Shown one piece after another: positions 13,682-36,393 of a DNA stretch of 64,000 nucleotides (positions are counted from its first letter, which is position 1; each line of letters opens with the position of its first letter). Below the pieces are notes generated by a model that worked only from the letters and a program-made list of their open reading frames with translations, did no database searches and was not told the origin of the DNA. The stretch lies in NCBI RefSeq assembly GCF_014280435.1, contig NZ_CP060388.1, positions 1,736,001 to 1,800,000 of the forward strand, in the 5' to 3' direction. This DNA is from Sphingobium sp. KCTC 72723. GTDB taxonomy: Bacteria > Pseudomonadota > Alphaproteobacteria > Sphingomonadales > Sphingomonadaceae. Both the position numbers and the translations under genes were made by a program.

Positions 13682-14395
13682 TTATATCTGCACCAGATGC
13701 GCGACATCCTTCGCGCTTTCCTCCGCGATCGCGCCCTGCCGGATGATCCGTCCATTCTGCATCGCGCTATAACGATCGGCAAAGCGCCACACGAAATCCA
13801 GATATTGCTCGACCACCAGCACGGTCATGCCCAGCTGGTCGCGGACATGCACCAGCGCCGCCTCGATCTGCTGCACGACATTGGGCTGGATGCCCTCGGT
13901 CGGTTCGTCCAGCAGCAGCAGGCTGGGTTCCCCCGCCAGCGCGCGACCGATCGCCAGTTGCTGCTGCTCACCCCCGGACAGAAATCCCGCCGCGCGGGCG
14001 CGAATGTCATAAAGTTTGGGGAACAGGTCGAAAATATGCGGTGGCACTTTGGCGCTACCTTTCCCCCGCCCGGCCAGCGCAGACAGCCCGGTTTCCAGAT
14101 TTTCCATGACGGTCAGCTGCGGAAACACATGCCGCCCCTGCGGCACGAAGCCGATCCCCGCGCGCGACCTTTTATGCGCGGTCAATGCCGTAATGTCCTG
14201 CCCGTCGAACCGGATCGTCCCGCCCGTCACTAGCCGCGTCCCCATGATCGTATGCAGCAACGTCGTCTTGCCCACGCCATTGCGGCCGATCAGCGCCATC
14301 ACCTGCCCCCGCGCCAGCGTCAGGTCCACGTCCCACAACACCCGGCTCTGACCATAAGCGCTCGACAGGCCGCCAATTTCCAGCAGCGCGCTCAT
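13682..14395 (-). CDS. urtE: Urea ABC transporter, ATP-binding protein UrtE
   Basis: One of two ATPases of the branched-chain-type urea importer. 237 aa with Walker A (GRNGVGKTT), Q-loop (GFVPQGRHVFPQLTVMENLETGL), signature LSGGEQQQLAIGRAL and Walker B LLLLDEPTEGIQPN. The EGIQPNVVQQIE run is characteristic of UrtE relative to LivF. It is the last gene of urtABCDE and overlaps urtD by ATGA. It converges with the GntR gene 22 bp away. Confidence 0.93.
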   Translation of the reverse strand: MSALLEIGGLSSAYGQSRVLWDVDLTLARGQVMALIGRNGVGKTTLLHTIMGTRLVTGGTIRFDGQDITALTAHKRSRAGIGFVPQGRHVFPQLTVMENLETGLSALAGRGKGSAKVPPHIFDLFPKLYDIRARAAGFLSGGEQQQLAIGRALAGEPSLLLLDEPTEGIQPNVVQQIEAALVHVRDQLGMTVLVVEQYLDFVWRFADRYSAMQNGRIIRQGAIAEESAKDVAHLVQI

Positions 14396-15150
14396 GCGGT
14401 GTGGCCCAGATAGACGGCAGCGACTTCCGGGTCGGCGCGCACTTCGGCGACGCTGCCCTGCTTTAGAAACTTGCCTTGGTGCATCACCGTCACGGGCGCG
14501 GCCAGTTGTTCGACAAAGCTCATATCATGGTCGATGACCAGCACGGTGCGCGTGTCGCCCAGCCCCAATATCAGCTGCGCGGTGCGGCTCGTCTCCGCCG
14601 GACCCATGCCAGCGGTCGGCTCGTCCAGCAGCAGCAGTTCCGCTCCCGTCGCCATCACCATCGCGATTTCCAGCCATTGCTTCTCGCCATGCGCCAGCGT
14701 GCCGGCCTCCACCGTGGCGCGGTGCGTCAGGCCGACGCTCTCCAGCGCTTCGTCCACCGCGATCCGTTCGTCCGCCGGGATGCCAGTCGCCAGACTCTTC
14801 CACCAGCGCCGGTCGCGCCGCGCCGCCAGCGCCAGATTATCGCGCACGGACAGGGTCGGCAGCACGCCGGGCGCCTGAAATTTCCGGCAAATCCCCCGCG
14901 CGACGATCGCCTGTTCGGGCAGGCGGTGGATTTCCTCGCCCTTGAATATCACGCGCCCCGCGCTGGGCCGCACCCGGCCGATGATCGTGTCGCACAGGGT
15001 CGATTTGCCAGCCCCGTTGGGACCGATGACCACGCGGGTTTCGCCCCGGTTCAGCGTCATCGAAAATCCGTCCAGCGCCTTGAACCCGCTATAGTCGATG
15101 GTCACGCCATCGACGCTCAGGATAAGGTCGGATACAGCAGATCCGCTCAT
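14392..15150 (-). CDS. urtD: Urea ABC transporter, ATP-binding protein UrtD
   Basis: 252 aa, the LivG-like ATPase of the urea importer. Walker A GPNGAGKST, signature region LAHGEKQWLEIAMVMATGAELLLLDEPTAGMGPAET. HGEKQWLEI replaces the usual LSGGQ, a hallmark of UrtD. The ATG at 15150 (MSGSAVSDLILSVDGV) overlaps the urtC stop by 4 bp; the longer open frame upstream is shadow of urtC. Confidence 0.93.
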   Translation of the reverse strand: MSGSAVSDLILSVDGVTIDYSGFKALDGFSMTLNRGETRVVIGPNGAGKSTLCDTIIGRVRPSAGRVIFKGEEIHRLPEQAIVARGICRKFQAPGVLPTLSVRDNLALAARRDRRWWKSLATGIPADERIAVDEALESVGLTHRATVEAGTLAHGEKQWLEIAMVMATGAELLLLDEPTAGMGPAETSRTAQLILGLGDTRTVLVIDHDMSFVEQLAAPVTVMHQGKFLKQGSVAEVRADPEVAAVYLGHTA

Positions 15151-16175
15151 GCCGCCTTCCCCTTCACCAGACCCGCCAGCCCGCGCGGCAACAAAGTGAC
15201 GACGAAGATGAACAGCGCGCCCATCAGATAGAGCCACAATTCAGGGAAAGCACTCGACACCGCATCGCGCGCCAGATTGACGAGCAGCGCGCCGACGATT
15301 GCGCCTGCCAGACTATAGCGCCCGCCAATCGCGACCCACACGACCATCTCGATCGAAGGCACCACGCCGATCAGCGCAGGCGACACGACGCCAGCGTGCA
15401 GCGTGAACAGCGCGCCGCCGATCCCGGCCAGCATCGCGGCAATGGCAAAGGCCGCGACCTTGAACGGCGTGGGATTATAGCCCAGAAACCGCACCCGGTT
15501 TTCGCCATCGCGCGCCGCGCGCAGCAATATGCCAAAACGCGACGCCAGCAACCAGCGCAGCCCGACAAACGCCCCGCACAACAGCGCCAGCGTGATCCAG
15601 TAGAGCATCGATCCGGTGCCGGGACTGGCCAGCCCGACGCCGAAGATCGAATAGAAATCAGTGAGGCCATTGAAGCCCCCGGTCACGTCCTGCCGCGAAA
15701 TGATGAGCGTGGCGAAGGCCAGGCTCAACGCCTGCGTTATCAGCGCGAAATAGGTGCCGCCCACCCGCCGGTGGAACACGGCCCAGGCAAACAACGCCCC
15801 TGCCAGCGTCGGCACCGCGACAATCGCTGCGATCGTGAAGGCAGGGCTGGCAAAAGGCGCCCACCAGAAGGGCAGACTTTCCCGTCCGCTCCACACCATG
15901 AAATCGGGCAGTTCGCCCGCTGGCAGATCGGCCAGCTTCATATGCAGCGCGATGGCATAGCCACCCAGCCCGAAAAACACCCCCTGCCCCAGGCTCAATA
16001 TCCCGCCATGGCCCCAGATGAGGACAAGGCCGAGCGCCAATATCCCCATCGCCATGAACCGCGCAAGCAGGTTGAGATCATAGCTGGACAGCGCGAAGGG
16101 CGCGACGATGCCGAGTAGCAGCAAGGCCCAGGGCAGCGCTGGCTTGGGCGGCGAAAGACGGGAAAGATCAGGCAT
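15147..16175 (-). CDS. urtC: Urea ABC transporter permease UrtC
   Basis: 342-aa inner-membrane permease of the LivM type with about ten hydrophobic segments. Typical urea-branch motifs: LIWGHGGILSLGQGVFFGLGGYAIALHMKL, DVTGGFNGLTDFYSIFG, RFGILLRAARDGENRVRFLGYNP. It overlaps urtB by 8 bp and urtD by 4 bp. Confidence 0.94.
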   Translation of the reverse strand: MPDLSRLSPPKPALPWALLLLGIVAPFALSSYDLNLLARFMAMGILALGLVLIWGHGGILSLGQGVFFGLGGYAIALHMKLADLPAGELPDFMVWSGRESLPFWWAPFASPAFTIAAIVAVPTLAGALFAWAVFHRRVGGTYFALITQALSLAFATLIISRQDVTGGFNGLTDFYSIFGVGLASPGTGSMLYWITLALLCGAFVGLRWLLASRFGILLRAARDGENRVRFLGYNPTPFKVAAFAIAAMLAGIGGALFTLHAGVVSPALIGVVPSIEMVVWVAIGGRYSLAGAIVGALLVNLARDAVSSAFPELWLYLMGALFIFVVTLLPRGLAGLVKGKAA

Positions 16176-17055
16176 CGAGCTGGCGGGTCTTTACGGCGAC
16201 GACGCCTTGCGGGCGCACCTGGATGAAAAGGATGACGAAGACGAGCAGCAACATCTGCGCCACGCTGACATCGACGAAAATCTGCGCGAGCGCGGCGAAC
16301 AGCCCCAATATGATCGCCGATGCGGTCGTGCCGACGATGCTGCCAAGGCCACCCATCACCACGACCAGGAAGGCGGGAATGATATAGCTTTGCCCGACAT
16401 TGGGCGTCACCGGGCCAAGCAGCGCCAACATGACTCCCGCCAGTCCCGCGACCCCCGAACCGAGGCAGAAGATCGTGAAATCCACGCGCTTGACGTCGAT
16501 GCCACTGGCCGACGCCATCATCCGGTCCTGATTGACGGCCCGCACCAGCAAGCCGATCCGTGTCTTGAGCAACAACAGTGCGAGCGCACCCAGCACCAGC
16601 GCGGCGATGGCAATGATGAACAGCCGCGCCGATGGTAAAGTGACGCCGAACGCGACGAAACTGCCCGTCAGCCATTCGGGCGCACGCACTTCCACCCCGA
16701 TCGCGCCGAACAGGTCGCGCGCGCCCTGTTGCAGGATCAGGCTGACCCCCCATGTCGCCAGCAACGTATCGAGCGGCCGCGCGGAAAGGTGACGGATCAG
16801 CGTGGACTGTATGAACCCGCCCATCGCGGCTGCACCCGCGAACGCGACGGGGATCGCCAATATGATCCCCATCGCGCCCGGCACCACCAGCAACGTCATC
16901 CAGGCGAGATAACCGCCCAGCATCAGCATTTCGCCATGCGCCATGTTGATCACGCGCATCAGCCCGAAGGAGAGGGCCAGGCCAAGCGCGGCCAACAGAT
17001 AGAGCGACGCCAGCGAAATGCCGTTGAACAGCTGGTTGAGGAAAAGGGCGTCCAT
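16168..17055 (-). CDS. urtB: Urea ABC transporter permease UrtB
   Basis: 295-aa LivH-like permease partner of UrtC. Landmarks: MDALFLNQLFNGISLASLYLLAALG start, RVINMAHGEMLMLGGYLAW, NVGQSYIIPAFLVVVMGGLGS. Some UrtB proteins carry a long periplasmic N-terminal domain; this one is the short form. The frame runs further upstream through the repeat element, but the start at 17055 coincides with the first membrane helix. Confidence 0.93.
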   Translation of the reverse strand: MDALFLNQLFNGISLASLYLLAALGLALSFGLMRVINMAHGEMLMLGGYLAWMTLLVVPGAMGIILAIPVAFAGAAAMGGFIQSTLIRHLSARPLDTLLATWGVSLILQQGARDLFGAIGVEVRAPEWLTGSFVAFGVTLPSARLFIIAIAALVLGALALLLLKTRIGLLVRAVNQDRMMASASGIDVKRVDFTIFCLGSGVAGLAGVMLALLGPVTPNVGQSYIIPAFLVVVMGGLGSIVGTTASAIILGLFAALAQIFVDVSVAQMLLLVFVILFIQVRPQGVVAVKTRQLDA

Positions 17056-17067
17056 GCGCTTAAAAAT

Positions 17068-17164
17068 CCGTTCGTCCTGAGCGAAGTCGAAGGACTTGCC
17101 TGAGCGAAGCGAAGGCATTTCGCTCCGCGCGATGAGGGGCTTCGACAGGCTCAGCCCGAACGGG
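17068..17164. repeat. REP-type inverted intergenic repeat
   Basis: CCGTTCGTCCTGAGCGAAG begins the left arm at 17068 and GCTTCGACAGGCTCAGCCCG begins the right arm at 17139; the arms are imperfect reverse complements around GTCGAAG. This pair is a widespread dispersed palindrome in sphingomonads and other bacteria. It sits between urtA and urtB inside the operon, so it may act as an mRNA stability or attenuation element separating the abundant binding protein from the permeases. Confidence 0.75.
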
Positions 17165-17177
17165 ATTGTGCGACATT

Positions 17178-18395
17178 TTACAGCTTGCAGGTCTTGCCGG
17201 GGAAGGCCAGCGCGTCATAGGGTTCCGGCACGATGTCCTTGCCGCTGTCGGCAATGATCTCGAACTGGCCATCTGCCTTCAGCTTGCCGATATAGGCTTT
17301 CTGGACCAGGCTCTGGTTCGCGGCGAAGCTGACCATGCCCATCGGCGTCGCGAACCCGCCCAGCGTCGCCGCCGCTTTACGCACCGCTTCGGGGTCGAAG
17401 CTCTTGGCCTTCTCCACTGCCGCTTTCCACGCATATACGTCCAGATAGCCATGGACCATCGGGTCGGTGATCGCCGCGTCCTTGCCGAACTTGGCCTTAT
17501 AGGCGGCGATGAACTTGGCGTTCGCCTCCCCGGTCAGGCTCTGGAAATAATTCCATGCGGCATAGCTGCCCTCGACCAGACCCGCGCCCATGGCCTGCGC
17601 TTCCTGTTCGCCGATGGAAAAGGACATGACCGGCATCGTCTTGGGGCTGATGCCTGCGGCCTGCATCTGCTTGAAGAAGGCGACATTGCTGTCGCCGTTC
17701 AGCGTGTTGATGATGATCGCGGGTTTTGCCTGCGCAATCTTGGCGATCACGCCCGAAAAATCGGTCCCGCCCAGCGGCACATAGGCTTCGCCCAGCACCT
17801 GCATCCCGCCCTTTTCGATATGCTTTTTCAGGATCAGGTTGGCGGTGCGGGGATAGACATAATCGGACCCGACCAGGAAGAAGCTCTTGTAGCCCTGCTT
17901 CACTGCCCATTCGAGCGCGGGGAGCGCCTGCTGGTTGGGTTGCGCGCCCGAATAGATGATGTTGGGCGAACATTCATTCCCCTCAAACTGTACCGGATAC
18001 CAGAGCAGATTCTTCGTCCGCTCGAAAACCGGCAACATCGCCTTGCGGCTGGCCGAGGTCCAGCCACCGAACACCGTCGCCACCTTGTCGCTTTCGATCA
18101 GCTTGGACGCCTTCTGCGCGAAGGTCGACGGGTCGGACGCGCCATCCTCGACCAGCGCATTGATCTGCTTGCCCATGACGCCGCCCGTGGCGTTGATTTC
18201 CTCGATCGCCAGCATTTCGGCATTTTTCACGGTGATCTCGCTGATCGCCATCGTGCCGGTCAGCGATTGCAGCACGCCCACCGAAACGCTGTCGCCCGCA
18301 GGCGCGCTCGCATTGTCGCCGCCGCCACCCGAACAGGCAGCCAGCGCCAGCGCGGCGGACGTAGTGGCAAGCAGCAGCAGCCTGGAACGGATCAT
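17178..18395 (-). CDS. urtA: Urea ABC transporter substrate-binding lipoprotein UrtA
   Basis: 405 aa. The N-terminus MIRSRLLLLATTSAALALAACSGGG carries a lipobox (LAAC), so it is probably a lipoprotein in the periplasm. The body matches UrtA: VGVLQSLTGTMAISE, GGWTSASRKAMLPVFE, LLWYPVQFEGNECSPNI, VGSDYVYPRTAN, VEGSYAAWNYFQS. UrtA binds urea and passes it to UrtBC. First gene of the operon; a 16-bp TACGTCA element lies 91 bp upstream. Confidence 0.94.
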   Translation of the reverse strand: MIRSRLLLLATTSAALALAACSGGGGDNASAPAGDSVSVGVLQSLTGTMAISEITVKNAEMLAIEEINATGGVMGKQINALVEDGASDPSTFAQKASKLIESDKVATVFGGWTSASRKAMLPVFERTKNLLWYPVQFEGNECSPNIIYSGAQPNQQALPALEWAVKQGYKSFFLVGSDYVYPRTANLILKKHIEKGGMQVLGEAYVPLGGTDFSGVIAKIAQAKPAIIINTLNGDSNVAFFKQMQAAGISPKTMPVMSFSIGEQEAQAMGAGLVEGSYAAWNYFQSLTGEANAKFIAAYKAKFGKDAAITDPMVHGYLDVYAWKAAVEKAKSFDPEAVRKAAATLGGFATPMGMVSFAANQSLVQKAYIGKLKADGQFEIIADSGKDIVPEPYDALAFPGKTCKL

Positions 18396-18485
18396 CGTCT
18401 GAAGTCTCCTCCATGGCAGGGCCGGACATGACGCTGCCGCACATTGGATGCCCTAAAGGCTATGGAATGCCGCCTGTCCCCCGTA

Positions 18486-18501
18486 TGCGTCATTTGACGT
18501 A
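18486..18501 (-). promoter_or_regulatory. TACGTCA-type 16-bp dyad upstream of urtA
   Basis: On the minus strand TACGTCAAATGACGCA, a nearly perfect dyad with half-sites TACGTCA and TGCGTCA. It lies 91 bp upstream of urtA and 35 bp upstream of the divergent ppiC-like gene. It belongs to a set of four such sites in this window. Confidence 0.55.
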
Positions 18502-18535
18502 GGCAGCAGCGACCGCTTGCGCCTAGAATGACACC

Positions 18536-24768: not shown

Positions 24769-24776
24769 CGGACCCC

Positions 24777-25136: not shown

Positions 25137-26590
25137 GACAGCCCCTTTCTTTCGGCAAAGCGTTCGAGAAAGCCCGGATTACGCACCGACAAAACGCCGT
25201 AGATGCGCAGGCATGTGTCGGTCCACTGGCGTATCCAGTCGCAATAATGGAGGTTGGCGTGGCCAGTGTCGCCATAGCGCACGAACGCTTCATGATGGCA
25301 TCCGCCAGCGCAGAGCGGCCGCGCCCAGCAGCTTTGGCAATCATATTTGGATTCGACATGGCCTTTTTTCAGGAACTCGCCCTGTTTGGTCCGGTCGATG
25401 CCGCTGGAGACATGGCCCATCACATGCGTGTCGGCGTCCGTGAAGCGGTGGCAGGGCGACAGGTCGCCCGACGGGCTTACGCCCATCAGGCCCAGGCCCG
25501 CGCCGCAGGGATGCGATTTGTTGACGCCGGAGATCAGCTCGCTGATCGTTTCGCTGACATTGGTGAAGCCGTGCGATTGCCCACGCAGCGCATATTCCAG
25601 CCATTCTTCGGCCAGCAGGTTGAACTGCGCCAGCACGCTGTCCATGCCATTATCGTCCAGCGAATAGGCGCGTTCTTCCCCCGTCGTTACCGGCGCGAAG
25701 CCGACTTCGTGGAAGCCTAGGTCATCCTTCAGGTGGCGGAAGATGCGCACCACATCGGTCACGCCTTCGGTCAGCGTGACGCGCGCGGTGATGGCGCGGG
25801 TCTTGTGATGGGCGATCAGCGTGCGCAGGCGCGGTTCGATGACCGCATAGCTGCCCTTGCCGTTCTTGTAGACGCGATGCTTGTCCTGCAACTCCGGTGG
25901 GCCATCCATGGATACGGTCACGCCGACGCGGTTGTCGGACAGGAAGGTGACGATCTCCGGCGTCAGCAGCGTGGCATTGGTGGTCAGGCTGTAGGTGATG
26001 GCCTTGCCCGCTGCCGCCGTTGCGCCATTGGCATAATCCACCACATCGCGCAGCAGCTTGAAATTCATCAGCGTTTCGCCGCCGAAGAAAGTGATATGCA
26101 CCGCCTTGCGCCCGACCGCTTCGGCGATCAGCAGATCGACCGACGCCTTGGCCGTGTCCAGCGTCATATATTTGGGCTTGCCTGCGGGCGTCGCGATCTT
26201 GTCTGCACCGAACTCATAGCAATAGGTGCAGGCGAGGTTGCACTGGTTGGTGACGTTCAGCACCAATGCCTGCAACGGAAAATCAGCGGGCGGTGCCTGC
26301 GGCACTTCGGCCAATAGCATCGCATGACCCAAATGGATGAGCCGCGCCTGCCGCAATTCGCAAACCAGCCCGTCCGCTTCGTCCGCCGCACGGCCTTCGC
26401 TCACCAGTTCGCGGACCAGTGCGGCGTGCGTCAGTTCCTGACCGTCCAGCCGGTCCAGCACGGCGCGGACATCGGCGTCGATCTCGAAGATCGCGCCCGC
26501 GCTGACCAGATAGACAAAGTCGCTGCCCCCCGCGTCGAAGCCATGATATTCCGCCCGGCGATAAGTTGGCGGTGCCTGCATCACGGTCAT
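25133..26590 (-). CDS. qhpD: Radical SAM/SPASM maturase forming gamma-subunit thioethers (QhpD)
   Basis: 485 aa. The radical SAM motif Cys 117-x3-Cys 121-x2-Cys 124 lies in TNQCNLACTYCYEFG, and a C-terminal SPASM-type set of cysteines follows (SHPCGAGLG, DLSPCHRF, CQSCWARPLCAGGCHHE). The N-terminal 100 residues form a peptide-recognition-like domain. QhpD links Cys sulfur to Asp/Glu carbons in QhpC. The ATG at 26590 overlaps the qhpA stop (ATGA); the ORF extends further upstream only as shadow. Confidence 0.95.
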   Translation of the reverse strand: MTVMQAPPTYRRAEYHGFDAGGSDFVYLVSAGAIFEIDADVRAVLDRLDGQELTHAALVRELVSEGRAADEADGLVCELRQARLIHLGHAMLLAEVPQAPPADFPLQALVLNVTNQCNLACTYCYEFGADKIATPAGKPKYMTLDTAKASVDLLIAEAVGRKAVHITFFGGETLMNFKLLRDVVDYANGATAAAGKAITYSLTTNATLLTPEIVTFLSDNRVGVTVSMDGPPELQDKHRVYKNGKGSYAVIEPRLRTLIAHHKTRAITARVTLTEGVTDVVRIFRHLKDDLGFHEVGFAPVTTGEERAYSLDDNGMDSVLAQFNLLAEEWLEYALRGQSHGFTNVSETISELISGVNKSHPCGAGLGLMGVSPSGDLSPCHRFTDADTHVMGHVSSGIDRTKQGEFLKKGHVESKYDCQSCWARPLCAGGCHHEAFVRYGDTGHANLHYCDWIRQWTDTCLRIYGVLSVRNPGFLERFAERKGLS

Positions 26591-28329
26591 TGCGACACCT
26601 CCGGTTGATCCCATTTCTGATAGGCAGGCACGGTCACGACCAGATAGGATCGCGCGCTCAGGGGCTTGCCGAACTTGTCTTTCTCGGTCTTGGCCGTCGC
26701 CACGACCCAGACTTCGCCATAATTGTTGCGGCCAAAGCGGCGCTGCGGGTTCGGGCCTTCGGTCGCCGGGGTGAAGAAGGCGGTGGGGCTGAGCGCGCCG
26801 ACATATTTGGTGTCGTCGTCATAATAGACCGAGAGAAATTCCTGCATCGACCAGGTGGCGTCGACCGCGCCGATGGCGATGTCGTCGGGCGTGTTCGCCT
26901 TGCCATCCAGCCCGTTTTCAAAGCCGGTCGCTTCAAATTGCTGATAGCCTTTGGGGAATTTCACCCCGCCCAGCCGCGAAAGGCCGGTTTCGGGCGTCAC
27001 CTTGATATAGTCGATCTTGCCATAGACGGGGAAAGCGCGTTCCAGCACCGCGCCCGCCACGCTGATGTCGCGCTGGCCCGATGCGGCGGTAGGCGCGATG
27101 TCGGCAGTGACGACCAGTTCCTGCGGGCCGGCCGATACGATCTTCGTCACTGTCACGCCCGCGCCCAGATCCAGATCGGCGGCGGCGGGTGACAGGGGCA
27201 GATTATGGCCAAGGATGCGCAGTTGCACGCCCTTGCTGCCCGCCTTTACCGGGCCGGGCGTCACCGCCAGCACAGCGGGCGCAGCGGTGGCGCGGATCAG
27301 TTTCACGTCCAGGCCAAATTCCTGATAATCGCCCCAATACCAGCGGCCCTGCGCGCTTTGCTGGTCGGGGGCGAACCACATGGCTTCGCGTGCGGCGCTG
27401 GACAGATCGTCGGGCTTGGCCGCCGCGACGCCGCCCTTCGACGATCCGCGCCAGCTATAGCCGGCATAGACGATGCCCGTGCCGGTGCGGCTGATCGTCC
27501 CGCCATTGGTCAGCGAACGCAGCGTGCTGCTCGTCACAAACTCGTCGCCGCTCTTGCCCGGCGTGACGCTGAACTGGCCGATGAATTTCCCCTGCCCCGG
27601 TGCGGACGCGACGACCAGCCATTCGCCAGTCAGGCGCGGGTTGCGCTGGCGCGCGCTCCAGGCCGCCCATTCGGGCGTATGGAGCGGCGCGACCTTGGGC
27701 ATGTAGGTCAGCGCATATTCGCCGCGCGTCAGCTTATCCTTGGGATCGCGGCCGGTGGGCTGCTCGCTATCCTCGGCGGGGCGGCGATATTGGGCATCGG
27801 CCTGCGAATAGAGGGCGACGTGCAGATCCTGCAACTGCTTCCATTCCAGCTTCGACCGGCGCCACGACAGCGGCTGCGCATAGCTGTGGCAGGCCGCGCA
27901 CGCGCCGCGCATGGTTTCGTTGGGGATGTTGCTTTCGTCCAGCATCCGCTTTTCGGGCAGATACATGACGGGCCGCGCTTCTTCGGGAGCCAGCCCGTGC
28001 GAGGCGGAGAGGGATTTGACGATGGCGCGGGATTCGGCGGGAGTGATGGCAAGGCCGTTCAGCCGCACCATCCGCTTGATTGCCTGCGCCCAGCCTTCGG
28101 GCGTGGTGCGGACCCAGCTGATCCGCGACAAATTGCCCTTTGCATCGGGGGCGTGGCAAGTGCCGCACTTTTCTTTGACCAGCGCGTCGGCGACGGGGAT
28201 CCCCGTCGCCGTTTCCTTCATGGTCGCGCCGTCCGGCCCGCCATCGGCCTGCGCAAACAGGATCGAGGTGGAAAACAGCGCCAGCAAACCGAATTTCGAG
28301 CCAAATTTCGAGACAGTTACCCGCTTCAC
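26587..28329 (-). CDS. qhpA: Quinohemoprotein amine dehydrogenase, alpha subunit (diheme)
   Basis: 580 aa. Signal peptide MKRVTVSKFGSKFGLLALFSTSILFAQA. Two c-type heme sites, Cys 55-x2-Cys 58-His 59 (KCGTCHAPD) and Cys 144-x2-Cys 147-His 148 (GACAACHSY), then three beta-sandwich domains typical of the subunit. The enzyme oxidises primary amines in the periplasm to aldehyde and ammonia and passes electrons to soluble cytochrome or azurin-like carriers. First gene of A-D-C-B-G-F-E; the TACGTCA element is 71 bp upstream. No AraC-type qhpR is present. Confidence 0.95.
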   Translation of the reverse strand: MKRVTVSKFGSKFGLLALFSTSILFAQADGGPDGATMKETATGIPVADALVKEKCGTCHAPDAKGNLSRISWVRTTPEGWAQAIKRMVRLNGLAITPAESRAIVKSLSASHGLAPEEARPVMYLPEKRMLDESNIPNETMRGACAACHSYAQPLSWRRSKLEWKQLQDLHVALYSQADAQYRRPAEDSEQPTGRDPKDKLTRGEYALTYMPKVAPLHTPEWAAWSARQRNPRLTGEWLVVASAPGQGKFIGQFSVTPGKSGDEFVTSSTLRSLTNGGTISRTGTGIVYAGYSWRGSSKGGVAAAKPDDLSSAAREAMWFAPDQQSAQGRWYWGDYQEFGLDVKLIRATAAPAVLAVTPGPVKAGSKGVQLRILGHNLPLSPAAADLDLGAGVTVTKIVSAGPQELVVTADIAPTAASGQRDISVAGAVLERAFPVYGKIDYIKVTPETGLSRLGGVKFPKGYQQFEATGFENGLDGKANTPDDIAIGAVDATWSMQEFLSVYYDDDTKYVGALSPTAFFTPATEGPNPQRRFGRNNYGEVWVVATAKTEKDKFGKPLSARSYLVVTVPAYQKWDQPEVSQ

Positions 28330-28399
28330 CCGATGTCCCCCTGAACGCGGTGCATTGCCGCGTGAAAGTGCAGCCTAGGCAGGTGCCGTTCCCGCGCTA

Positions 28400-28415
28400 T
28401 TGCCCAAATGACGTA
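28400..28415 (-). promoter_or_regulatory. TACGTCA-type 16-bp element upstream of qhpA
   Basis: On the minus strand TACGTCATTTGGGCAA, sharing the TACGTCA half-site and WW spacer with three other sites. It lies in the 134-bp gap between the ureohydrolase operon and qhpA, suggesting qhpA has its own regulated promoter. Confidence 0.5.
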
Positions 28416-28463
28416 TGGCCCCGCGACAATCCGCCATAGGAAACTTGACGACCATCAAGATTT

Positions 28464-29936
28464 TTAGCTTTTCTTCTTTGGGCCGTAATAGTCATCCTGC
28501 CCATGATCGACCGACACCGGGTTGAAATAGCCCGGCGGCAGACCCTTTTTGCGCATGGCGATGCCCGCCAGACAGGCGTTGAGCAGATAATTGCTGTTCA
28601 GCGCAGTCTTGTAGCTGGTGTCGAGATAAGGGGCGACTTCGACGATATCGATGCCCGCAATATCATTCTCCGCACATAGCCGCCGCATGATCGGCTGCGC
28701 CTCCCGCATGGTCAGGCCGCCGGGAACCGGCGTGCCGGTGCCGGGCATGAAGGCGGGGTCGAGAACATCGACGTCGAAGCTGATCCAAAGCTTCTTGGTG
28801 TTGGCCCGCGCTTCTTTCAGCGCGCGCTCCATCACCTTTTCCCAGCCCCATTTTTCCACTTCGACCATGGTGTGATATTTCATGCCCTTGTTGCGCATCC
28901 ACCCAAAGGTTTCGAGGTCGGGACCGCGCGCGCGCAGGCCGACCTGCACATAATCCTGCGGCCGGACATGGCCTTCATGCAGGACGCGATAGACCGGCGA
29001 TCCATGCGTGATCCAGTGAACGCCATTGCGGCCGACATCATAATGGCTGTCGAAATGGACGACGCCGACATTGCCCTTGCCATGCACATCGGCAGCCGCC
29101 GCGACATTGGGATATTCCAGGCTATGGTCGCCGCCGATGACGATGGGGATCGCACCCGTTTGCGCGATTTCGCGCACCATTTCGCGCACATGCGCGACGG
29201 AACGTTCGGTCGAGTTCTGGTCGATGGCAATGTCGCCATAATCGACGATTTCCAGCTGCGATCCGGGGTTGATCATCGAATACATGTCGTTGCCGCCCGC
29301 CCCGCCGGTCATGCGCAGCGCGCGCGGCCCGTCGATCGCATTGCGCCAGCCCGAACCCATGTCGAGCGGCGCGCCTACGATGGCGACATCGACCTTGCCC
29401 GCCTTCAAATCCGCCGGCGTCATCGCTACCGGCGCACCGGCAAAGGTCGCAAACGCGCCGCGTCGCCCGCCGATATAACGGCCAAGGTCGATCGGCCCAG
29501 CCTCGCGCCTTGGGTCCATAACCAGCGGGCGCTTGGCTTTCCACGCATTGAACCAGGCGGATCGGGTGTCGAGCGGGATGGTCTTTGCGTCGCGGCCCTC
29601 CTTATATTCGACCTGTTCGTGCAGCGCGGCGATCGCATCGATATAGGCGGCCAGTTCGGCGGCGGGCAGCGTGCGAATACGGTCGAACAGCACATCCTTT
29701 TCGACATAGCGCCCGGTCCGCCCCTGCGTGATGAGCGCGACCTTTTCCGGCGCGATGCCGGTCAGTTTCGCCGCGACATCGGCGGGAAGCGTCAGGGGCT
29801 TAGGCTCGCCCATAATGTCTTCCTGCGGGATCGGCGGCGGCGGATTGGGCGTGTCGAAACTGTCCCCCGCCAGCACCGATGTTGCCGCGGCCACCGCCGC
29901 TACGCTCCAGCCCGTTATGGCATTGATCGACGGCAT
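28464..29936 (-). CDS. Ureohydrolase (agmatinase/guanidino-acid hydrolase family), paralog 1
   Basis: 490 aa. Hydrolyses a guanidino compound to urea and an amine with a binuclear metal centre. All six ligands are present: His 271 (GGDHS), Asp 296, His 298, Asp 300 (HFDSHYD), Asp 388 and Asp 390 (SFDVDVLDP). The protein is about 170 residues longer than cytosolic agmatinases: a hydrophobic N-terminus (residues 5-23) without basic residues, a Pro-rich linker, and an extra helical domain at about 45-150. GGAGG six bases upstream fixes the start. Very similar to paralog 3. Substrate not predictable; localisation uncertain. Confidence 0.88.
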   Translation of the reverse strand: MPSINAITGWSVAAVAAATSVLAGDSFDTPNPPPPIPQEDIMGEPKPLTLPADVAAKLTGIAPEKVALITQGRTGRYVEKDVLFDRIRTLPAAELAAYIDAIAALHEQVEYKEGRDAKTIPLDTRSAWFNAWKAKRPLVMDPRREAGPIDLGRYIGGRRGAFATFAGAPVAMTPADLKAGKVDVAIVGAPLDMGSGWRNAIDGPRALRMTGGAGGNDMYSMINPGSQLEIVDYGDIAIDQNSTERSVAHVREMVREIAQTGAIPIVIGGDHSLEYPNVAAAADVHGKGNVGVVHFDSHYDVGRNGVHWITHGSPVYRVLHEGHVRPQDYVQVGLRARGPDLETFGWMRNKGMKYHTMVEVEKWGWEKVMERALKEARANTKKLWISFDVDVLDPAFMPGTGTPVPGGLTMREAQPIMRRLCAENDIAGIDIVEVAPYLDTSYKTALNSNYLLNACLAGIAMRKKGLPPGYFNPVSVDHGQDDYYGPKKKS

Positions 29937-29948
29937 GGCAGTCCTCCC

Positions 29949-31298
29949 TCAGCGCTTGGCGGTCTTGATCGGCGTACCCGTCTTGCGCATCGCGATGCCC
30001 GACAGGCAGGCGTGCAGGATATAGTTGGCGCTCATCCGGCTGACATAGGTCGGGTCGAGGATAGGCGCAGCGTCGAGCAGGTCGAAGCCCACCACCTTGG
30101 TCTGGGCGCACAGTTGCCGGACCATGGGGATGGCTTCACGCATCGTCAGGCCGCCCGGCACCGGACGACCGGCTGCCGGGGCATCGCCCGGATCGATGAC
30201 GCTCATGTCGAAGGAGACGAAGATATTCTCCGGCCCTTTCTTGAGGCCAGCGAGGAGGTCGTTCGTCACGGCCTGCCAGCCGCGTTCCTGCACGGCGGCG
30301 GTCGGCATGATGCGCGCGCCTGCGTCGGTCAGCCGCTTCTGCGTGGCGGGATCGGCGTCGCGGCCATGCAGGCCGACCAGCGTCACGTCGCTGCCGCGCA
30401 ACAGATTCTGTTCGAGCAGGCGGGTGAGCGTCTGGGTGTCCGAAATCAGGTGATCGCCGTTCAACTCCGCCCCGGCATGGGCGTCGAACTGAATGAGCGC
30501 CACTTTGCCCGCGCCATAGGTGTCGACCATCGCCGCCACGTCAGGAAACATCAGCGTATGGTCGCCGCCGACGATGAATGGGACGACGCCCACGCTCGCC
30601 ATTTCGGCGATCATCGCGCGAATATGGTCCAGGCCACGGTCGGGTGCCATCGGATCAAACGCCAGGTCTCCATAATCGGCGATGGAGAGGACAAGACCCG
30701 GATCGACCCCGCCATCGGCATCCGCGCCGACCAGTCCGTCCATGCCGCGCAGCGCCATCGGCGCGTGCTTGGCATCGCGCCAGCCCGACGAGAAATCGAG
30801 CGGCACGCCAACAAAGGCGACCTCCACCTTCCCCGCGATCAAATCTTCCTTGCGGATCGCGACCGGCGCATCGGCGAAGGTCGGGATCGCGCCCTTTTGA
30901 AACTGATAGCGTTTCAGACTGAACGGGCCCTCGTCGCGCTTCAATTTGTCGAACATTTTGGGGCGGACGGTGGACCCGGCGTTCCAGCCGCGCGCTTGCG
31001 GGTTGAGCGCGATTTCGGACGGATCGCGCCCGGCCTTATATTTGCTGTCCTCCACCACGGCCATCAGCGCGGTGGCATAGGCGTCCACGTCCGCGGCGGA
31101 CCGTCCGGTCAGGGCGACCTGCAATTTTTCGGCCGTCAGGCCAAAGCGGGTCAGCACCGCCGGATCGGACAGGAACGCCTTTTTGTCCGGCGACAGGGTA
31201 GCCAGCGGATCGACGCCTTGCGCCGATGCGGGGCCGGACAGAGTCGCAAGGGCAAGGGCGAAAGCGGCGCTGCGCGCCAGCAAGGTGGTGCGTGCCAT
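29949..31298 (-). CDS. Secreted ureohydrolase-like protein with incomplete metal site, paralog 2
   Basis: 449 aa with a standard Sec signal peptide (MARTTLLARSAAFALALATL, cleavage after ASA), so periplasmic. It keeps the family fold and His 247 (GGDHT), Asp 272, His 274 and Asp 364, but two of the six metal ligands are replaced: Gly 276 in FDAHAG instead of Asp, and Ser 366 in SFDMSVIDP instead of Asp. Each replaced residue normally serves one of the two metals, so ordinary dinuclear catalysis is doubtful. It could be a partner subunit or binding protein. The ATG at 31298 overlaps the paralog 3 stop (TGATG). Confidence 0.85.
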   Translation of the reverse strand: MARTTLLARSAAFALALATLSGPASAQGVDPLATLSPDKKAFLSDPAVLTRFGLTAEKLQVALTGRSAADVDAYATALMAVVEDSKYKAGRDPSEIALNPQARGWNAGSTVRPKMFDKLKRDEGPFSLKRYQFQKGAIPTFADAPVAIRKEDLIAGKVEVAFVGVPLDFSSGWRDAKHAPMALRGMDGLVGADADGGVDPGLVLSIADYGDLAFDPMAPDRGLDHIRAMIAEMASVGVVPFIVGGDHTLMFPDVAAMVDTYGAGKVALIQFDAHAGAELNGDHLISDTQTLTRLLEQNLLRGSDVTLVGLHGRDADPATQKRLTDAGARIMPTAAVQERGWQAVTNDLLAGLKKGPENIFVSFDMSVIDPGDAPAAGRPVPGGLTMREAIPMVRQLCAQTKVVGFDLLDAAPILDPTYVSRMSANYILHACLSGIAMRKTGTPIKTAKR

Positions 31299-32776
31299 CA
31301 ATTCTTCTTCCCATAATAGGCGTCCAGGCCGTGATCGACCGAAACAGGGTTGAGATAGCCGGGCTTCAGCCCCTTCTTGCGCATGGCGATGCCCGCCAGG
31401 CAGGCGTTCAGCAGGAAATTGCTGTTGAGCGCGGTCTTGTAACTGGTGTCGAGATAGGGCGCGACTTCGACGATATCGATGCCCGCAATGTCATTTTCCG
31501 CGCACAGGTTGCGCATGATCGGCTGCGCCTCCCGCATGGTCAGGCCGCCGGGAACGGGTGTGCCGGTGCCGGGCATGAAGGCGGGGTCCAGCACGTCGAC
31601 GTCGAAACTGATCCACAATTTCTTGGTGCTGGCGCGGGCTTCCTTCAATGCGCGGGCCATCACCTTGTCCCAGCCCCATTTCTCCACTTCGACCATCGTG
31701 TGATATTTCATACCCTTGTTGCGCATCCAGCCGAAGGTTTCGAGGTCGGGACCGCGCGCGCGCAGGCCGACCTGGATATAGTCGCTGCCGCGCACATGCC
31801 CTTCGTTGATCACGCGATAGACCGGCTGGCCATGGTCGAGCAGGTGGACCCGGCCCCGGCCGATGTCATAATGGCTGTCGAAATGGATGACGCCGACATT
31901 ACCCTTGCCATGCACGTCCGCAGCCGCCGCGACATTGGGATATTCCAGGCTGTGGTCGCCGCCGATGACGATCGGGATCGCGCCGGTGCGGGCGATTTCG
32001 GCGACCATGGCGCGGACATGATCGACGCTGCGTTCGGTCGAATTCTGGTCGATGGCGATGTCGCCATAATCCACGATCTTGAGCGCGGCATTGGGGTTGA
32101 TCATCGAATACATGTCGTTGCCGCCCGCCCCGCCGGTCATCCGCATGGCGCGTGGGCCGTCGATGGCGTTGCGCCAGCCTGAACCCATGTCGAGCGGCGC
32201 ACCCACGATGGCGACATCCACCTTGCCCGCCTTCAAATCCTCCGGCGTCATCGCCAGCGGCGCACCGGCAAAGGTGGCAAAGCCGCCGCCATAGCCGCCA
32301 ACATAGCGAGTCAGCTCCCACGGCCCCGCATCACGCCGGGGGTTCATCGCGGCCGGGCGCTTTTCTTTCCAGGCGTTGAACCAGGGTGATTTGGTATCGA
32401 GCGGGATGGCGGCCAAATCCCGCCCGGCCTTGAATTCCACCTGCGCATGGAGCGCCTGCATCGCATCGATATAGGCGCTGATTTCCTCTGCCCTGCCCTT
32501 GCGGATACGGTCGAACAAAGCGTCCTTTTCGACATAACGGCCCGTCACGCCGCTCTTGAGGAAGTCGATCTTCGCCTTGTCGACACCAGCCAGCTTCGCT
32601 TCGACATCCTTGGGCAGTTCCAGCGGCTTGGGCCGGCCCATATCGTCTTCCAGCGGCATTTGCGGCGCGGGCGTAGCAGCATTGGTCAACACCGGCGGCA
32701 AGTCGCCAGCAACCACGGCACCAATGGCCGCGATCCCGGCCATGCTCCATCCAGTAATGGCGGTCAAAGAAGGCAT
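31298..32776 (-). CDS. Ureohydrolase (agmatinase/guanidino-acid hydrolase family), paralog 3
   Basis: 492 aa, first gene of the three-gene operon. Metal ligands are complete: His 275, Asp 300, His 302, Asp 304, Asp 392, Asp 394. From residue 160 on it is nearly the same as paralog 1 (for example VAIVGAPLDMGSGWRNAIDG), and it shares the same uncharged hydrophobic N-terminus AITGWSMAGIAAIGAVVAGD. I chose ATG 32776 because GGAG is six bases upstream; the ATG three bases earlier would be too close. A further ORF extension upstream has no homology. Two short hairpins lie in its leader. Confidence 0.87.
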   Translation of the reverse strand: MPSLTAITGWSMAGIAAIGAVVAGDLPPVLTNAATPAPQMPLEDDMGRPKPLELPKDVEAKLAGVDKAKIDFLKSGVTGRYVEKDALFDRIRKGRAEEISAYIDAMQALHAQVEFKAGRDLAAIPLDTKSPWFNAWKEKRPAAMNPRRDAGPWELTRYVGGYGGGFATFAGAPLAMTPEDLKAGKVDVAIVGAPLDMGSGWRNAIDGPRAMRMTGGAGGNDMYSMINPNAALKIVDYGDIAIDQNSTERSVDHVRAMVAEIARTGAIPIVIGGDHSLEYPNVAAAADVHGKGNVGVIHFDSHYDIGRGRVHLLDHGQPVYRVINEGHVRGSDYIQVGLRARGPDLETFGWMRNKGMKYHTMVEVEKWGWDKVMARALKEARASTKKLWISFDVDVLDPAFMPGTGTPVPGGLTMREAQPIMRNLCAENDIAGIDIVEVAPYLDTSYKTALNSNFLLNACLAGIAMRKKGLKPGYLNPVSVDHGLDAYYGKKN

Positions 32777-32892
32777 CATCGTCTCCGGCCCGTGCGTCGC
32801 CAGACGGGCGATACGGGCTTGGGCAACAGAAAGGAGGCAGGTTTTCCCGCCATGTCTTCCACGGGGTAGGCGAGGCAAGGCCGCCGCCCCAA

Positions 32893-32908
32893 TGGGGCAT
32901 TTGACGTA
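32893..32908 (-). promoter_or_regulatory. TACGTCA-type 16-bp element facing the ureohydrolase operon
   Basis: On the minus strand TACGTCAAATGCCCCA, 117 bp upstream of paralog 3. Its sequence is identical over all 16 bases to the element at 32941-32956 on the other strand. Confidence 0.6.
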
Positions 32909-32940
32909 GACCAGCGCCATGATGACCCGGACGAACAGGC

Positions 32941-32956
32941 TACGTCAAATGCCCCA
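32941..32956 (+). promoter_or_regulatory. TACGTCA-type 16-bp element facing the TonB receptor
   Basis: TACGTCAAATGCCCCA on the plus strand, 166 bp upstream of the receptor start. With 32893-32908 it forms a perfect 16-bp inverted repeat separated by 32 bp. Confidence 0.6.
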
Positions 32957-33121
32957 TGTCTGACTGCCTGCGCAGCCCATAGCTTCCACGACATATCACA
33001 AGAAAATGAGGCGGCAGTCCATGTCGTCTGCAAGCAAACGTGGCCGCTGCATCAAGCGCGGGACGGTGCGATCCGGGAGGGGTCGAGGGCAGGGAATAGA
33101 CAGAAGGATAAGGGGAACATC

Positions 33122-35563
33122 ATGTCGTATCGCGCTAAGCTGAAACTGGGACTGCTATCCGCGACGATCATGTCGAGCGCGGCCATGGCCACGCCCGCCA
33201 TGGCGCAGGTTGCCGCCGCAGAAGCGGAGGCGGACAGCGACGTTATCGTCGTCACCGGCACCCGCCGCAGCACCACGTTGATGGAAACGCCGATTAATAT
33301 TTCGGCCATCGGTGCCGCTGAGCTGGCCGCCGAACGGCTGGACGACGTCCGCGATCTCGGCGCGTTCACGCCGGGCATCACCGTGACTGACACCGGCCCG
33401 CGCGGCGCGGCGACCATCGTCATGCGCGGTCTTTCCGCGAACGATACGGAAGCGTCTGGTTCGAACTACAGCAGTTCGTTCGGCACCTATCTGGGTGAGA
33501 TTCCGCTGTATCTCGACTTTAAGTTTATCGACATCGAACGGATCGAAACGCTGCTGGGTCCGCAAGGCACGCTTTACGGCTTGGGCACGCTGGCAGGCGC
33601 GATCCGCTACATGCCCAACCGGCCCGATCCGACGCAGTTTAGCGGTGAAGTCCATGGCCGCGCCTATGACGTGGCGCACAGCAAGGGCGTGGGCTATGTC
33701 GGCGACGCGACGATCAACATCCCGATCATCAAGGATGTTCTGGCGTTCCGTTCAGCGACCGGCTATTATTACGACCCTGGCTTCATCGACTATCCGTTCC
33801 TGGTGAAGACGCCCGGCGTATCGCTGGCGCAGCCCGGCCCGGCTTCCAATCCGCTAGGCACGCAGGCGCAGCAGGACGCCAATTTCGCCGGGCGCAAGGA
33901 TCTGAATTTCGAAAAGACCTTCACCACCCGCAACCAGCTGGGCGTGTCGGTGCCCGACTTCAACGCCTATCTGACCTATGCCTATCAAAAGACGCGGACC
34001 GCCGGCCGTCAAGCAACGACCGACGGCATCGTGGGCGAAGGCAAATATGAGGCCGCAGGGCGCTATGCCGAACCATCGACCCGCCGGTCGCAATTGGTCA
34101 GCCTGGAAATGGAAGCGCAGTTGGGCGATGTGTTCCAGGCAGTCTGGGCATCTGCCTTTACCAAGACCAAGAATAATACGGTCGGCGACGTGTCCGACCT
34201 GCTGCTCGACCTTGATTATGACTATGAGTTGTTCCCCGCCTTTGCAGGCTATACGACGGGCATCAACAGCCGCACCCAGTTCAACCAGGAAATCCGGTTG
34301 GTTTCGACCCATGGCGGGCCGTTCAGCTGGGTCGTGGGCGGTTTCTACAACAGCATGAAGTTCAAGTCCGACAGCGTCGAAACGCTGCCCGGCTTCGCTG
34401 AGTTTGCCGTCACCGCCGCAGGCCGCGCCGCCTATGGCAATTTCTACAACGGCCTGATCCGTCCCGATGGCGCGGAATATGTGTCCTTCACCCGGTCCAA
34501 GACCGAAGAACAGGCCGTATTCGGTGAATTGACATTCAAGCCGATTGAACAGTGGCAGATCACAGGCGGCGGGCGTTACTTCCGCTACGACACATCGATC
34601 ACCGGCGGTTCCGACACGCCGATGACGGGTGGTGGCCGTCGCCGGATGCCCTATCCCAGCCTGACCATTGATCCGTCGCGCGTGCGCAGCGGGCAAGCAG
34701 GCGATGATGGCTTTGTTTGGAAGTTCAATACCTCGTTCAACTTCACCCCAGACCTGATGGCCTATGCAACCTACAGCAAGGGTTACCGGATCGGCGGCGT
34801 CAACCGCGTGGTGCCGTGCATCCAGCCATTGCCCGCCGGACAGAATCTGTGCGCTCTGCCCAACGAGCTGACTTTTGGCCCGGACAAGGTGAAGAATCTG
34901 GAACTGGGTGTCCGCGCCCAGTTGTTCGACCGTCGCCTGTCCACCAGCGTGTCAGTGTTCCAGGTCAAGTGGGACGGTATCCAGCTGTCGAGCCAGACGG
35001 TCAACGGCGCGATCGGCATCACGGCCAATGGCGGCAAGGCCAAGTCGCAGGGCGTCGATTTCACCTTCAATGCCCGCGTCACCGACCAATTCATCGTTCG
35101 CGGCAACTACTCCTATCTCGACGCGAAACTGACCGAAGATGTGCCGGGCCTGTTGTCGACAGCGACCGGCGACGCCGATCTCTTCTCCGGCGATCGCCTG
35201 CCTGGTTCGGCCAAGAATTCCGGCGCGGCGTCGGCAGTCTATACCCTGCCTATGGGCGAGAACGACCTGCGTCTCAACTGGACCGCGACTTATACCGGCG
35301 GCATCCTGACCCGTCCGGGTGCGCGGGGCGGCGGCGAGCGGCTGCCGTCCTATGTGATGCACCGTGCGGCGGCGACCTACAGCACGGACGCATGGGAAAT
35401 CAGCCTGTTTGCGAACAACATCTTCGACAAATATGCGCTGACCGGCGTGTCAAACGACCTGACCCGGCGTGGCCAGATCAACGACGGCATCATCTATCGC
35501 GGCTATGCCCGGTCGGTCGCGCAACCGCGCACCATCGGCCTGGAAGGGCGCGTGAAGTTCTGA
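33122..35563 (+). CDS. TonB-dependent outer-membrane receptor, probably for a nitrogen compound
   Basis: 813 aa. Signal peptide ending TPAMAQ, then a TonB-box-like DVIVVTGTRRS, the plug domain (about 45-165, with RGLS and LLGPQGTLYG) and a 22-strand type barrel ending in aromatic-basic GLEGRVKF. It lacks features of iron-siderophore receptors and has no Fur-like site upstream; instead it is divergent from the ureohydrolases and shares their promoter element, so the ligand may be a guanidino or peptide-like nitrogen source (inference). AAGGGGA five bases before ATG supports the start. A strong terminator follows. Confidence 0.88.
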   Translation: MSYRAKLKLGLLSATIMSSAAMATPAMAQVAAAEAEADSDVIVVTGTRRSTTLMETPINISAIGAAELAAERLDDVRDLGAFTPGITVTDTGPRGAATIVMRGLSANDTEASGSNYSSSFGTYLGEIPLYLDFKFIDIERIETLLGPQGTLYGLGTLAGAIRYMPNRPDPTQFSGEVHGRAYDVAHSKGVGYVGDATINIPIIKDVLAFRSATGYYYDPGFIDYPFLVKTPGVSLAQPGPASNPLGTQAQQDANFAGRKDLNFEKTFTTRNQLGVSVPDFNAYLTYAYQKTRTAGRQATTDGIVGEGKYEAAGRYAEPSTRRSQLVSLEMEAQLGDVFQAVWASAFTKTKNNTVGDVSDLLLDLDYDYELFPAFAGYTTGINSRTQFNQEIRLVSTHGGPFSWVVGGFYNSMKFKSDSVETLPGFAEFAVTAAGRAAYGNFYNGLIRPDGAEYVSFTRSKTEEQAVFGELTFKPIEQWQITGGGRYFRYDTSITGGSDTPMTGGGRRRMPYPSLTIDPSRVRSGQAGDDGFVWKFNTSFNFTPDLMAYATYSKGYRIGGVNRVVPCIQPLPAGQNLCALPNELTFGPDKVKNLELGVRAQLFDRRLSTSVSVFQVKWDGIQLSSQTVNGAIGITANGGKAKSQGVDFTFNARVTDQFIVRGNYSYLDAKLTEDVPGLLSTATGDADLFSGDRLPGSAKNSGAASAVYTLPMGENDLRLNWTATYTGGILTRPGARGGGERLPSYVMHRAAATYSTDAWEISLFANNIFDKYALTGVSNDLTRRGQINDGIIYRGYARSVAQPRTIGLEGRVKF

Positions 35564-35663: not shown

Positions 35664-35694
35664 TGCGACTCGTTTGCAATTGCGAGTCGTTCGC
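35664..35694 (+). promoter_or_regulatory. Two overlapping iron-box-like sites upstream of the PepSY operon
   Basis: TGCGACTCGTTTGCA (35664-35678) and TTGCGAGTCGTTCGC (35680-35694) both fit a TGCGA-N5-TNGC(A) pattern resembling alphaproteobacterial Fur boxes. A possible -35 (TTGCAA, 35674) and -10 (TATGCG, 35697) with 17-bp spacing are covered by the sites, as expected for repression by Fur-iron. Confidence 0.45.
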
Positions 35695-36381: not shown

Positions 36382-36393
36382 GGGGAAATATCC

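Follow-up and report, generated by a model that had tools for sequence, protein, structure and literature searches.

Exported-type ureohydrolases with a degenerate partner in a candidate urea and guanidino-nitrogen regulon of Sphingobium

Introduction

Several described systems frame the locus discussed here. Metformin/dimethylguanidine hydrolase (MefH, DmgH; MetCaCb) is a nickel-dependent heteromeric ureohydrolase, and its operon in Aminobacter also contains urea transport and metabolism genes (PMC11399263; PMC11271267). A catalytic alpha subunit is encoded in tandem with a beta subunit whose metal site is degenerate, hupE lies beside them, and both this enzyme and the guanidinase GdmH use nickel and chaperones (PMC11399263). 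Other points of comparison are GdmH itself (Synechocystis, PDB 7esr and 7oi1), the guanidinobutyrase GbuA (PDB 3nio), quinohemoprotein amine dehydrogenase (QH; PDB 1jmx and 1jju), and the canonical urtABCDE and urease loci. The stretch of DNA analyzed here is a 64,000-nucleotide piece of the 4.43-Mb genome of Sphingobium sp. KCTC 72723 (G000:C1:1736001-1800000), hereafter the window. By family profile scans, a block at 13.7-35.6 kb of it encodes the urea importer UrtABCDE, a peptidyl-prolyl isomerase (PPIase) paired with HupE/UreJ, a QH operon (qhp), three ureohydrolase paralogs and a TonB-dependent receptor. An earlier note, made from the letters of the stretch, had named families in this block, and NCBIfam and Pfam scans place all of them where it had put them.

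We consider it rather likely that this block belongs to a regulon for urea and guanidino nitrogen, governed by a kinase-regulator pair and including exported, heteromeric ureohydrolases. Its core is the ureohydrolases, the urea importer, urease and the PPIase-HupE pair. In this scheme a histidine kinase and a LuxR-type regulator would act at an operator before urtA, the PPIase-HupE operons, ureohydrolase 3 and the receptor, a fourth ureohydrolase and ureD, and more weakly at qhp and a cytosolic ureohydrolase. Ureohydrolases 1 and 3 would be catalytic and ureohydrolase 2 non-catalytic, all of them exported and joined in a hetero-oligomer like the alpha and beta subunits of metformin hydrolase. 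Guanidino compounds would be hydrolyzed in the periplasm to urea and an amine; UrtABCDE would import the urea and urease would then free ammonia, HupE/UreJ and the PPIase would supply metal and folding, and qhp, a genus-level addition to the regulon, may oxidize the released amine. Exported enzymes that keep a conserved dead partner and are coupled to urea import through a defined operator and a candidate kinase would amount to an extracytoplasmic way of recycling guanidino nitrogen. Many genes at present annotated as agmatinase family protein would then gain a function that can be tested, and HupE/UreJ genes, PPIase genes and a large family of permease-like kinases would gain a context. No description of exported ureohydrolases, of this operator or of a link between urt, qhp and ureohydrolases was found among the literature matches listed, which lie mostly outside subscription journals.

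Paired ureohydrolases and a degenerate partner

The paralogs are encoded in tandem on the minus strand by ureohydrolase 1 (28464..29936), ureohydrolase 2 (29949..31301) and ureohydrolase 3 (31298..32920). That there are three such genes stands, as all match PF00491, but only two encode full metal sites: the family's ligand set (H, D, H, D, D, D) is present in paralogs 1 and 3 and not in paralog 2, a pseudoenzyme. Identity between ureohydrolases 1 and 3 is 79%, and both retain the full six-ligand set in the motifs GGDH, DSHYD and SFDVD. Ureohydrolase 2, which is 38-39% identical to ureohydrolase 1, reads DAHAG and SFDMS; two ligand aspartates (positions 300 and 390 of ureohydrolase 1) have become glycine and serine, and aspartate stands at the positions of the conserved H311 and E433. 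Ureohydrolases 1 and 2 have signal-peptide-like N-termini, as does ureohydrolase 3 when read from a start near 32776, which gives a protein of 492 amino acids. The closest named relative of ureohydrolase 1 among the matches listed comes from Sphingobium sp. D43FB (95% identity).

The best 80 of 86 family matches represent 72 distinct loci (numbered with L, as genomes are with G) of very unequal length and in part overlapping. Together with the window and two further stretches of the same genome (L030 and L031) they yielded 130 ureohydrolase open reading frames (ORFs), own-genome rows included. Signatures were counted in the 124 without gaps in key columns, 122 different sequences of which entered a quick tree supported by the Shimodaira-Hasegawa-like approximate likelihood ratio test (SH-aLRT) only. 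The full active signature is found in 83 rows, the pseudoenzyme signature in 29, and an alteration at the histidine position only in 12. All 29 pseudoenzymes fall on one side of a single branch (SH-aLRT 99; one change, shuffled mean 26.1), and each of them adjoins a non-pseudoenzyme paralog (29/29, in 27 loci including the window), in records from Sphingobium, Novosphingobium, Komagataeibacter, Gluconacetobacter, Lysobacterales and Pseudohongiella. The hallmark of the metformin hydrolase type, tandem catalytic and metal-site-degenerate paralogs, is thus present here, and by analogy ureohydrolases 1 and 3 probably form a hetero-oligomer with ureohydrolase 2.

A hydrophobic N-terminal stretch with a possible cleavage site is found, by a crude hydrophobicity-based test with starts chosen by script, in 76 of the 83 active rows, 29/29 pseudoenzymes and 11/12 of the others. 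One of the 83 active rows, a cytosolic-type ureohydrolase from a second locus of the same genome, fails it. The ureohydrolases appear to be exported, and the suggestion in the earlier note that hydrolysis takes place outside or at the inner membrane gains support from these N-termini.

Signal-like N-termini on both subunit types set the system apart from metformin hydrolase. So does the lack of hypA and hypB directly upstream: neither was seen in the window, where the ureohydrolase neighbors are the receptor, qhp and PPIase-HupE, the relatives not having been searched for hypAB. Ureohydrolase 1 also matches MefH-type PDB chains (8ryi_C, 1.1e-22) more weakly than guanidinobutyrase or GdmH. Its best solved relative is GbuA (E=7.7e-46), from which it differs by ~150 extra N-terminal residues, a signal sequence and the pseudoenzyme partner. 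GdmH shares family and metal ligands, matches ureohydrolase 1 at E=1.1e-41 and is the best solved match of ureohydrolase 2. The guanidinase residues T97 and W305, in Synechocystis numbering (PMC11410670), align with G196 and T402 of ureohydrolase 1 under a presumed numbering offset of +2; T and W occur together in 0/130 rows (12 being gapped at one or both positions). A guanidinase assignment of the GdmH type was rejected for want of these counterparts. Because the guanidinase residues are absent and the best solved relatives are guanidinobutyrase and GdmH, the substrate would be a guanidino compound rather than any named one. Twelve more distant ureohydrolases (L088, L097-L104) have N, G, S, A or I at H311 and keep the metal ligands; these may act on other substrates.

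A shared operator

The four intergenic sites at 18491, 28405, 32898 and 32941 do share a promoter element, as the earlier note had claimed; its length, put there at 16 bp, is revised to an operator of ~20 bp with the consensus CATGSGKCATTTGACGTAGG, derived from 68 distinct sites, and a dyad-like form, TGCGTCA-TT-TGACGTA. The site ATGCGTCATTTGACGTA lies between urtA (minus strand) and the PPIase gene (plus strand) at 18482..18505 (+; 11-mer 18491-18501). The weaker site GCTATTGCCCAAATGACGTATGGC precedes qhp at 28396..28419 (+; 11-mer 28405-28415; score 13.6 by position weight matrix, PWM). Two head-to-head sites occupy the gap between ureohydrolase 3 and the receptor at 32889..32960 (scores 34.4 and 34.5; 11-mers 32898-32908 on the plus and 32941-32951 on the minus strand).

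Loose matching gives no signal: in the window alone the element with 3 mismatches is not significant (3 found; 14/100 shuffles reach 3), the 11-mer with 2 mismatches is not above chance there (8 found, mean 8.7), and genome-wide with one mismatch 23 matches compare with 21 for the reversed word, again not significant. The exact 11-mer occurs 5 times in the 4.43 Mb, 4 times at the regulon and once before a DUF4198-HupE pair. In 1.66 Mb of related loci it is found 59 times (49 distinct contexts, the loci partly overlapping), as against 0 for the reversed word and a mean of 0.19 and maximum of 3 for 100 permuted words. The PWM, trained on many of the sites that it scores in loci that in part overlap, finds 140 sites of at least 20 within 400 bp before regulon genes of the related loci and 3 elsewhere; 2.4 Mb of shuffled DNA give no score of 20 or more and 9 sites at 13-20. 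Over 120 kb of own sequence (the window and L030-L032), scores above 8 fall before urtA/PPIase, ureohydrolase 3/receptor (two sites), qhp (13.6) and a second PPIase-HupE pair, and also before ureohydrolase 4 (two), ureD (28.2), the cytosolic ureohydrolase (16.5) and the DUF4198-HupE pair (9.5), the remaining readings being opposite-strand readings of two of these sites. A 17-mer form has 64 sites in genomes of the genus. Measured to a ureohydrolase or urtA gene, 48 of these are no more than 500 bp away and 13 more no more than 6 kb, and the other 3 precede PPIase-HupE operons; these distances draw on 42 of 71 ureohydrolase and 20 of 21 UrtA rows, and the omitted rows could only shorten them.

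Urea import, urease and the kinase-regulator pair

The importer genes match NCBIfam equivalogs and lie on the minus strand at 13682..18395: urtE (13682-14395), urtD (14392-15237), urtC (15147-16175), urtB (16168-17118) and urtA (17178-18395). UrtA, UrtB, UrtC and UrtE score above their cut-offs and UrtD falls 0.6 bit short (303.5 vs 304.1). The urea route drawn in the earlier note is supported and can be extended, since a urease operon lies outside the window: the single urease alpha match of the genome is at 1.644 Mb, ~100 kb away, with ureD, C, E, F and G by Pfam and ureA and ureB by position. Importer and urease belong to the same families as in canonical loci; what sets this locus apart is that a single operator connects them with exported-type ureohydrolases and with a hybrid kinase of permease-like type and its LuxR-type regulator. 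The kinase, a hybrid histidine kinase of 1119 amino acids, and then the LuxR-type response regulator follow the urease operon and are the candidate reader of the operator.

Co-occurrence was counted at kinase thresholds of E 1e-40 in the genus and 1e-60 in the class, and for ureohydrolases at E<=1e-60 in a family sample and in the genus. Across 88 genomes of the genus, the 17-mer is found in 20, the kinase sensor in 21, exported-type ureohydrolases in 20, UrtA in 21 (20 over cut-off) and QH alpha over its cut-off in 35; the reversed 17-mer has no match. The element accompanies the kinase in 20 of 21 genomes and is found in 0/67 without it (kinase alone in G121, element alone in none), which makes the coregulation suggested earlier likely. 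UrtA is present in 20/20 genomes with exported-type ureohydrolases (one partial and below cut-off), so the linkage to urt, too, extends to relatives. This last count tells against an otherwise conceivable account in which the enzymes detoxify guanidino compounds or alkalinize the envelope, urea import being secondary. We find that account quite improbable; within the fetched flanks of the 72 loci, urtA appears in only 8 and urease in 18 (the kinase in 17, QH alpha in 13), as it would predict, and these absences are weak evidence because many of the loci are short.

In one genome (G120) the system takes a minimal form: the 20 kb read contain urt and urease genes together with those of the kinase and the regulator, the element stands upstream of both urtA and ureD, and the genome yields neither a ureohydrolase match nor a QH alpha above its cut-off. 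Another (G171) lacks both a kinase match and the 17-mer, and its cluster is decaying (L126, G171:C5:1832000-1851900), with urtA, urtC, PPIase and ureohydrolase genes fragmentary and urtD without a match. In the class the sensor is found in 12 of 143 genomes; urtA adjoins the kinase in 7 of the 11 others (loci with ~1.5-kb flanks). The pattern of an 18-bp dyad, ATACGTC-N2/3-TGACGTAT, was written after the sites in L132-L141 had been seen. If up to 3 mismatches are allowed, this dyad precedes the kinase in 7 of 11 class genomes, compared with 0/44 coding control pieces. Because of the co-occurrence in the genus and this neighborhood of urtA and dyad in the class, the kinase-regulator pair is the leading candidate to read the operator, with urea the leading candidate for the signal; that the LuxR-type regulator binds the operator is what we infer from these patterns. 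The sensor part seems permease-like and multi-span, judging by its transmembrane sequence and by the source names of homologs, which mention purine-cytosine permease for 5 of the 120 listed (one name incomplete). The kinase family is large, with at least 8000 scored candidates matched. A fold assignment for the sensor from PDB was tried and rejected for want of a relevant match.

Several points weigh against this regulon of exported, heteromeric enzymes. The correlation between the distances separating the pseudoenzymes and those separating their partners (r=0.973 over 29 pairs, as high in 0/1000 permutations) speaks for the pairing, but common descent of the locus would also produce it. The N-termini of ureohydrolases 1 and 3, although signal-like, have no positively charged start, and the signal peptides rest on hydrophobicity and not on SignalP. 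Some of the loci that gave the 17-mer and the PWM belong to genomes also counted in the genus set, at least G101/L078 and G122/L092, which share contigs. Genomes drawn from a single genus do not count as independent observations, which inflates the co-occurrence figures, and G121 has the kinase without the 17-mer, UrtA or a ureohydrolase. To these add the after-the-fact origin of the class dyad, its absence from L131 and L140 and its presence only as a variant in L133/L136, and the lack of any Pfam or relevant PDB match for the sensor.

The amine dehydrogenase operon

The qhp genes lie on the minus strand and comprise qhpE (20303-21022), an ABC exporter in the place of qhpF (20976-22679), a qhpG-like gene (22676-23683), QH beta (23680-24930), QH gamma (24777-25136), qhpD (25133-26614) and QH alpha (26587..28329; TIGR03908, 569.5 bits against a cut-off of 274.35; PDB 1jmx, E=5e-60). 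The operon had been called complete, and its parts are all recognizable: QH alpha, QH gamma, QhpD and QhpE pass curated cut-offs and resemble the known enzyme. It must also be called divergent, because QH beta (71.3 vs 223.2 bits) and QhpG (60.4 vs 240) fall far below theirs; in this, and in the shared element upstream, it departs from the known amine dehydrogenase. Pfam scans of 40 ORFs in the window show no AraC-type regulator (QhpR).

One account, which we regard as a serious contender if slightly short of probable, holds that this is a urea (nitrogen-limitation) regulon in which qhp is another nitrogen-scavenging enzyme, its amine need not come from the ureohydrolases and co-location serves co-regulation only. 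QH alpha occurs without ureohydrolases in 16 of the 35 genus genomes that have it, as that account would expect, but is found in 19 of the 20 ureohydrolase genomes and in 17 of those 19 lies within ~310 bp of a ureohydrolase. The two are unlinked in G101, G147 and G053 (1.8 Mb apart in the last), and on these counts qhp is not a core part of the set proposed in the earlier note. In a family sample of 99 genomes, QH alpha exceeds its cut-off in 2 and this ureohydrolase type occurs in 5, both QH genomes being among the five. Outside the genus, a ureohydrolase pair in Komagataeibacter (L051) has as neighbors an oxidoreductase (34%) and, within 3 kb, a qhp operon that is divergent (alpha 59%), which is less easily squared with mere scavenging.

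A site of at least 13.6 precedes qhp in 11 of 12 ureohydrolase-linked loci (the exception, L033, scores 7.6) and in unlinked G147 (L111; 15.7), whereas scores are below zero in 6/6 loci from ureohydrolase-free genomes, loci from 6 of the 16 such genomes having been fetched and read. A good qhp operator is met only in genomes with ureohydrolases, contrary to what mere scavenging would suggest. Qualifying this, the site is also below zero in G101 and G053 (L112, L113), where the ureohydrolases are unlinked, and the window site is itself weak at 13.6, a range (13-20) in which the shuffled 2.4 Mb give 9 sites. A molybdenum oxidoreductase and a 2Fe-2S gene precede qhp in 4 of the 6 ureohydrolase-free loci (L105, L106, L108, L109), possibly an amine-to-acid unit of its own, and decaying G171 retains a full-length qhp with its weak site beside fragmentary ureohydrolase and urt genes; both fit the scavenging account. 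Because of the oxidoreductase and 2Fe-2S genes in those four loci, qhp looks as though it had been a unit beforehand and had been brought under the element on meeting the ureohydrolases. It looks like an addition to the guanidino-nitrogen regulon made in this genus, not a core member. We are doubtful of a fuller, envelope-spanning pathway, in which a receptor-imported guanidino compound would be cleaved by an enzyme with an obligatory dead subunit, loaded with metal by HupE and PPIase outside the cytoplasm, the urea passing to UrtABCDE and urease and the amine to QH and the molybdenum oxidoreductase, all under one urea-sensing kinase.

Metal supply and the receptor

The PPIC-type PPIase (PF13145; 18536..19387, +), which the earlier note had not listed, is paired with HupE/UreJ_2 (PF13795; 19374..20369, +; 148.7 bits), a putative nickel permease. 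The latter has the H-x5-DH motif of HupE/UreJ nickel permeases, which is kept in 43/44 HupE matches with at least 70% coverage. In relatives the PPIase stands beside a ureohydrolase and/or HupE; PPIase is found in 38 of the 72 loci, HupE in 36, both in 32 and the receptor in 27, many of the contigs being short. PPIase and HupE stay near distant ureohydrolases as well (L102, L104), which suggests a service role for the enzyme (folding, metal) rather than urea handling; more plausibly the pair helps the exported ureohydrolases, urease or both to fold and to obtain their metal. Nickel is a plausible metal, given the HupE family and the nickel use of metformin hydrolase and GdmH.

It is a further step, and one we think unlikely, to make this a nickel regulon in which the element governs nickel supply (TonB receptor, HupE/UreJ) together with nickel enzymes (urease, possibly the ureohydrolases) and the receptor takes up a nickel chelate. 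Elements do precede three HupE/UreJ operons (in the window, L030 and L032), but the minimal G120 has no HupE match in the 20 kb read, and urtA adjoins the kinase in 7 of 11 class genomes. Nor is qhp known to need nickel. The nickel dependence of metformin hydrolase and its adjacent hupE (PMC11399263) would suit such a regulon.

For the receptor (33122..35563, +; PF00593/PF07715), a metal or other cargo is as likely as a guanidino compound. In Sphingobium sp. ba1, a HupE/UreJ-like gene and some TonB receptors are reported to be raised under nickel (PMC5557971); their likeness to the window genes is one of family. Genes for PepSY_TM, DUF2271, DUF4198 and ApbE follow the receptor on the same strand (35674-38792, +), possibly a flavinylation/metal-reduction operon. 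The receptor and this set were considered as a conserved unit, an idea rejected since in the other loci compared the receptor has no such neighbors. Elsewhere in the genome, at 5657-7632 of L032 (G000:C1:2588001-2604000), DUF4198 is paired with a third HupE/UreJ gene; the exact 11-mer lies upstream (PWM 9.5) and another TonB receptor nearby at 9502-12303.

Neighboring genes

Around the urease operon are a second HupE and PPIase pair, the fourth ureohydrolase with a signal-like start, the cytosolic ureohydrolase (agmatinase TIGR01230, 186.7 vs 174.3 bits), an APC permease, an agmatine-deiminase-family gene (PF04371) and a gene for a putative carbon-nitrogen hydrolase. A molybdenum oxidoreductase with a 2Fe-2S partner is also present; its relative in L038 has a Tat-like start, judged by eye. 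A MauD-like protein (76.5 bits, below the cut-off of 188.6) could serve disulfide formation in exported enzymes; its gene (L030 12608-13306) is divergent from ureohydrolase 4, likewise in some relatives. A gene for a TPR and sulfotransferase-like protein lies near urease, follows HupE in L030 (6339-7997), L038 (5698-7260) and L079 (13101-14672), and converges on the TonB receptor in several relatives. Within the window, a further molybdopterin oxidoreductase-like gene lies at 45030-47309 (-), no element site being found near it, and an ORF upstream of the block (2070-3434, -) has a weak phage-integrase match of 23.2 bits, below cut-off.

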